Assembly: GCA_020851415.1 (NCBI GenBank)
Contig: JADZCU010000044.1
Location: 33,671 to 97,670, forward strand
Direction of reading: 5' to 3'
Length of the DNA: 64,000 nucleotides
Source: Candidatus Peregrinibacteria bacterium
GTDB taxonomy: Bacteria > Patescibacteriota > Gracilibacteria > UBA1369
Shown: piece by piece, positions 43,271-45,148 of the stretch
Numbering within the stretch: position 1 is the first letter of the stretch
How the letters are laid out: each line of letters opens with the position of its first letter
Notes under the pieces: generated by a model
What the model saw: the letters and a program-made list of their open reading frames with translations, nothing else
Told to the model about the DNA's origin: nothing
Databases searched by the model: none
Made by a program: the position numbers and the translations under genes

Positions 43271-43298
43271 TAGACAATAGAAAATCGACGAGTATAAT
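43271..43298 (+). promoter_or_regulatory. Promoter of the leader/SAM-hydrolase-like unit
   Basis: TAGACA (43271-43276), 16-nt spacer, TATAAT (43293-43298). Confidence 0.65.
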
Positions 43299-43321
43299 CG
43301 GGATGTAATTTTCAATTTTAC

Positions 43322-43411
43322 ATGCAAATTTCCTTCGCAAAATCTGAACAGACCAACATGATGATGTCTATGATGATGCTTTCTCAGCGAAGGTTTGAGT
43401 TTGTGGCGTAA
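43322..43411 (+). CDS. Met-rich leader peptide candidate MQISFAKSEQTNMMMSMMMLSQRRFEFVA
   Basis: 29-codon ORF read manually; 7 Met codons including ATG ATG ATG TCT ATG ATG ATG; lies between promoter and terminator. Confidence 0.6.
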   Translation: MQISFAKSEQTNMMMSMMMLSQRRFEFVA

Positions 43412-43463
43412 TAGAATAACTTACAAAACTCCAAAGCCTTCGCAACTGCGAGGGCTTTTTTTT
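43387..43463 (+). promoter_or_regulatory. Transcription attenuator: antiterminator (43387-43396 with 43434-43443) versus terminator (43433-43443 with 43448-43458, then T-run)
   Basis: GCGAAGGTTT pairs AAGCCTTCGC; AAAGCCTTCGC-aact-GCGAGGGCTTTTTTTT is an 11-bp terminator; additional segment CCTTCGC (43332-43338) can pair GCGAAGG (43387-43393). Confidence 0.65.
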
Positions 43464-43494
43464 AAATCCATATTACTTTTTAATTTTCTTCTCT

Positions 43495-44757
43495 ATGTCT
43501 TCTCTGGATTCCCGAACTGCTGGTACTTCTGAAGGATTAGAAACTTCCACTGATCTTGCAGCACAAGTTCATTTGCCTGAAAGTAGTCCACCATCATCCG
43601 GTGAACGTGCGCTTTTACCGGGTGAAGTTGATGGCGAACTTTCTCAGTTTCGACTGAGAATAGCACAAAATAGAGAACAGTTTCCTGATCATCGGAGTGT
43701 TGTTGTGGTGAGTGATCTGGATGATTTGGCCAGTGGCCAGGTGGCTGCATCTATTCGCGAGCAGGGGCCGCGAGGGGCAAATTTTCAGGTGGCGGAATTT
43801 AACGGAGTGCACCCTTATAATTTGATCTCAGCTGCACATACGTTGGCGGCACTTCTTTCTGACAAGAAAAATTTTCCGGCGGGTAGTATTTTTGTGATAG
43901 TTGTTGACCCACATGTGGGTCAGAATGGCCATGATGGTCAAAATGTTGCTGATAAGCGGGCAATTATTGAGTATGAAGATGGAACTGTTTTGGTTGGACC
44001 GGCGAGGTCTTACATGAGAACTGGTGAGTTTCATGGACGTGGAAAAATTGCCCGTGCCGTGGAGATTGATAAGGATCGCCTGGTTGCCTTGGGATTGACT
44101 GAAAATAAGGGTAATGATGTCTTTGACGGGCTTCGAAGGTTTGGTCCTGCAGCCGCGGCTGCACTTCATTCTGTGCCACTGGAAGAGCTGGGATCACCGA
44201 TTGATGTGGAAAAAATCCCCGTGTTAGAAATACCTGATGGAACCATTTCCGATATTGAGCCAAACTATCAAAATATCCGAGTAGAAACTGCCTATGACCG
44301 TTTTCCGATCGGATCTGATTTGGCAGTGAGAGATGCTGAAGGTAATTTGCTGTGCATTGCCAAAAGAAGGCAGGCTTTTGAGGGAGAAAAGGGTGATATT
44401 GTTGCAGTGAACGGAAGCAAATTTTTGGTTACGGATGACGGAAAAGGCAAGAAGGGTTTGTATTTGGGGGCGGTCCAGGGGCAACTTGCCGGGCTTCTGA
44501 GCGAAAAGTTTGGGAAGCAGGTTGAGGTTGGAGACAGGCTGGTTGTAGATATAGCTACACAGGAGGAAATTGATCGATATAGTGCGGAGAAAACCTTGAT
44601 TGAGCTGAAGGAGTCAGCTCAGGATTTGGTGACCGCAATAGGCGGTAAAATTGAGACTGAGATCGCGTCGATACTTGGCTCGCATCAGAGTGTTGGAGAC
44701 ATTGTTTCCGGTGTTTCGAAAAAGCTTCGAAAGGTTGCACAATGGCTTAGGGCATAA
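43495..44757 (+). CDS. Divergent DUF62-family protein (SAM hydroxide adenosyltransferase / SAM hydrolase-like)
   Basis: 420 aa; VVVVSDLDDLASG...GVHPYNLISAAHTLAALL...FPAGSIFVIVVDPHVGQ...KRAIIEYEDGTVLVGP matches the LTDFG / DIxHxVxP..AAxxL / FPxGTVxVxVVDPGVG family pattern. Confidence 0.7.
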   Translation: MSSLDSRTAGTSEGLETSTDLAAQVHLPESSPPSSGERALLPGEVDGELSQFRLRIAQNREQFPDHRSVVVVSDLDDLASGQVAASIREQGPRGANFQVAEFNGVHPYNLISAAHTLAALLSDKKNFPAGSIFVIVVDPHVGQNGHDGQNVADKRAIIEYEDGTVLVGPARSYMRTGEFHGRGKIARAVEIDKDRLVALGLTENKGNDVFDGLRRFGPAAAAALHSVPLEELGSPIDVEKIPVLEIPDGTISDIEPNYQNIRVETAYDRFPIGSDLAVRDAEGNLLCIAKRRQAFEGEKGDIVAVNGSKFLVTDDGKGKKGLYLGAVQGQLAGLLSEKFGKQVEVGDRLVVDIATQEEIDRYSAEKTLIELKESAQDLVTAIGGKIETEIASILGSHQSVGDIVSGVSKKLRKVAQWLRA

Positions 44758-44824: not shown

Positions 44825-45148
44825 ATGGAGTGTAAATTTGTAAAAATTGCGGTGTTTGCTCCCGCCACGCATGGTGATGTTATCCGCAAGGCTTTAGCTG
44901 ATGCGGGTGCAGGGCACATTGGTAATTATGATTTTTGCTCTTTTTCCTCCAGAGGAGTGGGACGATTCCGCGGACTTGAAGGAACAGATCCTTTTATTGG
45001 TAAACCGGGAAAGATTGAAGAGGTGGATGAAGAAAAAATCGAGGTTATTTGCCCCTCGGATATTTTGAAAAAAGCGCTGGATGCCGTTCGAACTGTTCAC
45101 CCTTATGAAGAACCTGCGATTGATATTTATCCCCTGTTGAACGAGTAA
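44825..45148 (+). CDS. NIF3/YqfO C-terminal (PII-like) domain protein
   Basis: 107 aa, HIGNYDFCSFSSRGVGRFRGLEGTDPFIGKPGKIEEVDEEKIEVICP...HPYEEPAIDIYPL. Confidence 0.85.
   Translation: MECKFVKIAVFAPATHGDVIRKALADAGAGHIGNYDFCSFSSRGVGRFRGLEGTDPFIGKPGKIEEVDEEKIEVICPSDILKKALDAVRTVHPYEEPAIDIYPLLNE

Follow-up and report, generated by a model that had tools for sequence, protein, structure and literature searches.

A putative methionine-codon attenuator upstream of a SAM hydrolase-like gene, and similar leaders before metG, in Patescibacteria

A 64,000-nucleotide stretch of contig 44 of a Candidatus Peregrinibacteria genome of 1.42 Mb (the window) carries an element, flanked by a GNAT gene on one side and a PF01887 gene on the other, that is very probably a real methionine-shortage switch. 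We consider it highly likely that this element is a ribosome-mediated transcription attenuator sensing charged tRNA-Met. Established here are its parts and their arrangement, conserved through compensated changes in the stems, as well as the constant spacing between Met codons and segment 2 and the sharing of the leader with metG. The genomes are mostly drafts from uncultured bacteria, and no expression data or experiment stands behind the attenuator claims.

Anatomy and folding of the window element

The element and the genes that follow it comprise these features:

43271–43298, + strand: promoter, with TAGACA (43271–43276), a 16-nt spacer and TATAAT (43293–43298), read from the sequence; the ortholog locus L005 has TTGACA/TATAAT at the matching position
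43322–43411, + strand: leader peptide ORF, 29 codons, ATG at 43322, stop TAA at 43409–43411, MQISFAKSEQTNMMMSMMMLSQRRFEFVA
43358–43378, + strand: control codons, ATGATGATG-TCT-ATGATGATG, with ATG runs at 43358–43366 and 43370–43378
43332–43338, + strand: segment 1 (protector, 1:2), CCTTCGC, which pairs with segment 2
43387–43396, + strand: segment 2 (5' arm of the antiterminator), GCGAAGGTTT
43434–43443, + strand: segment 3 (3' arm of the antiterminator and 5' arm of the terminator), AAGCCTTCGC
43433–43463, + strand: intrinsic terminator (segments 3:4), 11-bp stem, 4-nt loop and T8, −16.9 kcal/mol
43495–44757, + strand: SAM_HAT (PF01887/DUF62)-like gene, 420 aa, divergent
44825–45148, + strand: gene for a 107-aa protein with no family assigned, between the SAM_HAT-like gene and mutS, also found in L005
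45149–47674, + strand: mutS, next downstream, with the gene order as in L005

An earlier note on this DNA had listed the parts of an attenuator from promoter to terminator, and every one of them is present, base for base. The terminator reads AAAGCCTTCGC-aact-GCGAGGGCTTT at 43433–43458, with its eight T at 43456–43463, and is mutually exclusive with the antiterminator, the two having one segment in common. The first Met codon lies 29 nt 5' of segment 2. Downstream of the promoter, an inverted repeat (ATGTAA-N9-TTACAT, 43303–43323) runs up to the start of the leader ORF, and the start codon is itself paired in an extended 1:2 hairpin; an operator or sequestration of the start codon is possible. 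The 107-aa protein gene may belong to the same transcript as the SAM_HAT-like gene. With mutL following mutS downstream of these two genes, the attenuator might also influence the mismatch repair genes.

Folded without a ribosome, the RNA from 43310 to 43475 forms 1:2 and 3:4 together at −38.8 kcal/mol (z −2.6, with 1 of 200 shuffles equally good), and the 1:2 hairpin reaches the leader start codon. When folding was constrained by a ribosome on either Met run and by the polymerase at segment 3, a long antiterminator resulted (43387–43406 paired with 43419–43443, −21 to −24 kcal/mol), while with the ribosome at the stop codon the antiterminator was gone and the terminator formed. In these constrained folds, the window RNA behaves as the earlier note predicted, although its claim that a ribosome at the stop codon covers segment 2 holds only in part: segment 2 lies within the ORF, and a standard footprint masks no more than 43391–43396, which suffices in the constrained folds to abolish the antiterminator. 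The finished transcript at equilibrium always favours 3:4, and we therefore infer that the choice of antitermination must be kinetic, as in other attenuators.

On this anatomy, RNA polymerase would initiate just downstream of 43293–43298 and a ribosome would translate the 29-codon leader. With charged Met-tRNA scarce, the ribosome would stall on the ATG runs at 43358–43378 and keep segment 1 off segment 2; the free segment 2 would then pair with the emerging segment 3 as the antiterminator, and transcription would proceed into the SAM_HAT-like gene. With Met-tRNA ample, the ribosome would reach the stop codon and mask part of segment 2 until its release permits 1:2, and 3:4 would form and terminate transcription. 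Without any translation, 1:2 and 3:4 are predicted to form, and transcription would end as well. Ribosome stalling, termination, translation and Met dependence are all inferred for the window attenuator, in the absence of expression data.

Met leaders in two patescibacterial classes

Few genomes of the class to which the window belongs have PF01887 (8 of 359). The one ortholog (L005; 45–55% identity), from another genus of the same family, keeps the promoter, a Met leader (MKITLALQIAAKNMMDMMMPMMFFMRRLG) and the terminator, with an antiterminator (TGCGAAGGT:ACCTTCGCA) whose stem differs from that of the window. A homolog of 29% identity from another family of the class (L003) has a leader, MKLLLSLLMQMMMHLVRGYCRV, and a terminator that are both unrelated in sequence to those of the window, with CGGGGGT:ACTCCCG as the antiterminator. 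The order SAM_HAT-like gene, 107-aa gene, mutS is kept in two genera (window and L005). The remaining loci of this class whose upstream sequence is complete (L010, L011, L012 and L017) have no Met leader, and none was found at the SAM_HAT genes L019 and L020, and the association is therefore lineage-specific and not universal. The PF01887 match at L017 (G259) contains six in-frame TGA codons, and this lineage presumably reads TGA as glycine.

A phylum-wide search yielded one further Met leader, L021, from another patescibacterial class. In that class, all eight high-scoring canonical SAM_HAT loci (>120 bits, four families; L023–L030) carry a Met leader, of 13–16 codons (MKQTLKTSTMAMVAV, MSKLIQTSMMMVMRAG, MTIQSSVMMDMMLAS, MNKFVTMMQMTSV, MISQTSVMMDMMNAS, MDKNVVAMGMMMTC, MKLGVYMMAMDSA and VNVNIVAMSMMMTC), and at six of the eight the gene order is leader, SAM_HAT, metG (MetRS); low-scoring divergent SAM_HAT relatives in the same search had no Met leader. 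A covariance model built from the eight canonical leaders and searched in their class found more, including leaders of metG operons without SAM_HAT. Clear Met-run leaders stand directly before metG at L105, L107, L108, L111, L112, L115, L118 and L126, and metG is the second gene after the leader at L109, L110, L113, L114 and L116. MetRS, HisRS and a ThrRS domain were identified by Pfam, and the other leader targets by reading of the protein.

At L113 (G787), a gene for a 264-aa protein lies between the Met leader and metG; the protein resembles by eye L034 and L035, which are low-scoring SAM_HAT relatives, and a scan of its first 160 aa gave no Pfam match. L106 (G859) has a Met leader (VIMITSMMMKMNSV) and a full attenuator before a 236-codon ORF that is neither metG nor SAM_HAT and that, over the first 160 aa scanned, has no Pfam match either. 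When the same covariance model (R1) was run on the class of the window, the matches that were read contained no Met leader and look like ordinary gene-end terminators, which serves as a negative control. Scored with the model built from the other class, the window element reaches no more than 14.3 bits (E 0.3), and common descent of the two leader groups is therefore not demonstrated; repeated origin is possible.

The architecture was compared over 25 Met leaders, of which 11 precede SAM_HAT, 13 belong to metG operons and one has an unknown target (L106); SAM_HAT or metG thus lies downstream of 24. The first internal Met codon is 20–34 nt 5' of segment 2 in all 25. Except in the window, L005 and L003, segment 2 begins 2–7 nt past the first stop-codon base, a position in which a ribosome at the stop would mask it fully. 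Each leader has a −10-like box (4–6 of 6 matches) just upstream, mostly 6–9 nt before the start codon (23 nt in the window), from which we infer that the transcripts of most leader ORFs are probably translated as leaderless ones. Most leader ORFs in the series L097–L126 likewise start 6–9 nt past a −10 box.

The summed 2:3 complementarity of the 25 leaders was 492, against 306.3 ± 10.6 (sd) for shuffled sequences, with a maximum of 345 among 1000 shuffles. For the 11 SAM_HAT loci alone, tested earlier, the sum was 239 (135.8 ± 7.0 for shuffles), and single-locus results within this set ranged from strong to not significant (L029, 0.32). Stems vary by lineage (GCGAAGG, CGGGGGT, CGGAGG, GCGGGG, GGCGG), and the change extends to all three segments at once. 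Judged from the sequences, and counted per locus without R-scape, this joint change is compensation. Model alignment A5 misregisters stems of different register and was excluded from the pair counts, helices being counted per locus instead. A clear segment 1 is seen only in some leaders (the window, L023, L024 and L027); elsewhere it is weak or absent, and so it is not general. The comparison of orthologs for Met runs and compensated stems that the earlier note proposed was positive in L005, L003 and L023–L030, the Met leaders numbering 25 in total.

The sensor and alternative readings

Sister leaders in the other class combine runs of a matching amino acid with a terminator and an antiterminator. 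Thr runs precede ThrRS (L120, L213), His runs precede HisRS operons (L119, L215, L230), Phe runs precede PheS/PheT (L220, L222; L123 is also at a PheRS gene) and Ile runs precede IlvB/IlvA (L224, L218). Also observed were an HHH leader whose downstream target was not found (L219), a Phe/Tyr run before a PEP-mutase-like gene and an aminotransferase (L216), and a Thr run before an NAD-dependent epimerase-like gene (L117). By analogy with these leaders, we infer that the sensor is tRNA, the best argument being that leaders with cognate runs precede matching synthetases in the same phylum. The methionine signal proposed in the earlier note is corroborated both by metG under the same leader and by the Thr, His and Phe runs before their synthetases. 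Control by matching-codon leaders looks general in the gene regulation of these bacteria.

In type, the element belongs with the classical ribosome-mediated attenuators, its sensor being for Met and its targets new. It resembles the attenuators of the trp, his, thr, ilv, leu and phe operons and of Escherichia coli pheST in the runs of controlling codons in a leader peptide, the competition of 2:3 with 3:4, the protector 1:2 and a stop codon near segment 2. The present leaders differ from these in their Met control codon, their targets (SAM hydrolase family genes and metG) and their patescibacterial hosts, and in that most of the leader ORFs start straight after the −10 region without space for a Shine-Dalgarno sequence. 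Leader-peptide attenuators are described for hisS in bacilli (PMC2965389) and for trpS and leuS in Streptomyces (PMC1262725), where, as here, a synthetase gene stands under a leader rich in its own amino acid. We found no Met leader in these two surveys, one of which reports that it saw no conserved RNA structures ahead of the methionine operons of Actinobacteria (PMC1262725). A full-text search restricted to open papers found no report of an attenuator whose control codons are for methionine, and none of leader-peptide attenuation in Patescibacteria.

That the element is only the ordinary terminator of the upstream GNAT gene, beside a Met-rich ORF that arose by chance and without regulation, appears extremely improbable to us. 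The distance of about 165–195 bp from the end of the GNAT gene would allow it, as would the weakness of the Rfam matches (Leu_leader and Phe_leader), which stay under their gathering scores; however, a promoter stands between the gene and the terminator, and other families and genera have the element as well, with altered stems, adjoining the same gene while the upstream neighbours differ. Nor does such an element occur elsewhere in 431 kb, where a rule-based scan of both strands for a Met-rich short ORF with a terminator and an antiterminator matched solely upstream of SAM_HAT genes; a strict generic scan of a 1.18-Mb genome returned six candidates, headed by the Thr leader of ThrRS. The 1.42-Mb genome contains four double ATG runs, and the one described here is the only attenuator among them. 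Nearly all of the 55 ATGATGATG sites in that genome were scanned without another Met leader, the sole other call (L093, LMALRRQRRPMRSA) looking like chance, and none was found upstream of metG in this genome or in G005, G092 and G292.

We also regard it as very unlikely that the runs of Met codons serve as start codons in a stack, or as sites of slow initiation, through which the element would gauge initiation or the supply of formyl-Met and not elongator Met-tRNA. ATG does double as a start codon and many leaders appear leaderless (−10 box 6–9 nt before the ATG), but the Met codons lie in frame within one ORF at a fixed distance from segment 2, and start codons cannot explain the paralogous Thr, His and Phe leaders of matching synthetases. 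SAM riboswitches and Met T-boxes exist, and they control methionine-related genes by termination, as the present leaders are inferred to do; what they sense is SAM or uncharged tRNA, by means of RNA structure and with no translation involved. Since the target concerns SAM, a metabolite riboswitch (for SAM or methionine) or a T-box with an incidental ORF might be invoked, yet this is scarcely tenable: no Rfam family reached its gathering score in 20 loci (18 without L005 and L003), and the shortest leaders (85–98 nt) could hardly fit an aptamer in addition to the ORF and terminator. The Rfam search of the window region returned only tRNA and sub-threshold leader-peptide families, with no riboswitch or T-box over threshold.

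The downstream protein and the role of the switch

The earlier note took the downstream gene for a DUF62-like SAM hydrolase. Family membership stands, with a PF01887 match of 38.7 bits against a cut-off of 26.3, but an active hydrolase is not fully supported. The conserved Asp is kept (DPHVG), while FHG has become FDG (FHGRD is FDGLR) and GPDNG has become GPARSY; the conserved Arg is replaced by Lys or shifted by one, a 9-residue insertion after DPxVG displacing it, and there are extra N- and C-terminal parts. With its catalytic motifs substituted, we treat the gene as a family relative and have not filed it as an active SAM hydrolase. The L003 protein shares only the FDG change, whereas the canonical L023–L030 proteins keep DPGVGSxR, GPDNG (GPNNG in L024) and FHGRD. 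A fold model of the window protein, of low confidence (pLDDT 56), had a single PDB match at E ≤ 0.001, the SAM hydrolase MJ1651 (E 3.6e-6). A PDB sequence search with the protein gave no match, and a search of viral contigs found no relatives.

It remains possible, though we rather doubt it, that the attenuator is real and senses Met-tRNA while the window protein no longer hydrolyses SAM and has another methionine-related role, in SAM binding, with another nucleophile or together with the 107-aa protein and MutS; such a reading is compatible with the attenuator itself. The altered motifs, the insertion and extra termini, and the gene order kept in two genera are in its favour, but profile and structure searches place the protein in the same fold family, the retained Met leader argues for a methionine link, and canonical members under like control keep all motifs. 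For the canonical group, it is well founded in family knowledge that SAM is split to yield methionine and adenosine (PMC12120602). That the window protein also obtains methionine from SAM, the switch thereby raising methionine supply, is an inference of less certainty than the attenuator.

The (R,S)-SAM hydrolases of DUF62/PF01887 include MJ1651, PH0463 and StDUF62 (PMC12120602), and the window gene belongs to their family but is divergent. Hydrolysis of SAM looks energetically wasteful, the purpose of DUF62 is debated, and for some of these enzymes the physiological role may be something else than to keep (R,S)-SAM from accumulating (PMC12120602). In the open full-text literature, we found no DUF62 member described under Met-tRNA control. 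The window's genome has metK, which is absent from seven of the eight genomes with a leader and canonical SAM_HAT, and from G092. As a correlate of that arrangement the absence was rejected, since 61% of that class lacks metK anyway and the difference is not significant. If the draft genomes are complete here, the cells without metK cannot remake SAM. Hydrolysis of acquired SAM to methionine when Met-tRNA is short, together with more MetRS, would make a coherent role, as we infer.

On balance, and only just, we favour a broader reading in which widespread small, mostly leaderless attenuators control synthetase and amino-acid genes of Patescibacteria by matching codons. Its Met branch would couple MetRS to the SAM hydrolase, and DUF62 would be a methionine-supply enzyme in these biosynthetically poor cells, drawing on acquired SAM in several genomes that lack metK. 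If this is true, DUF62 gains a physiological role, one that the link of a SAM hydrolase to Met-tRNA charging and metG makes direct and testable. It also suggests that these bacteria, with their small genomes, respond to single amino acids, which would aid the design of media for culturing them.
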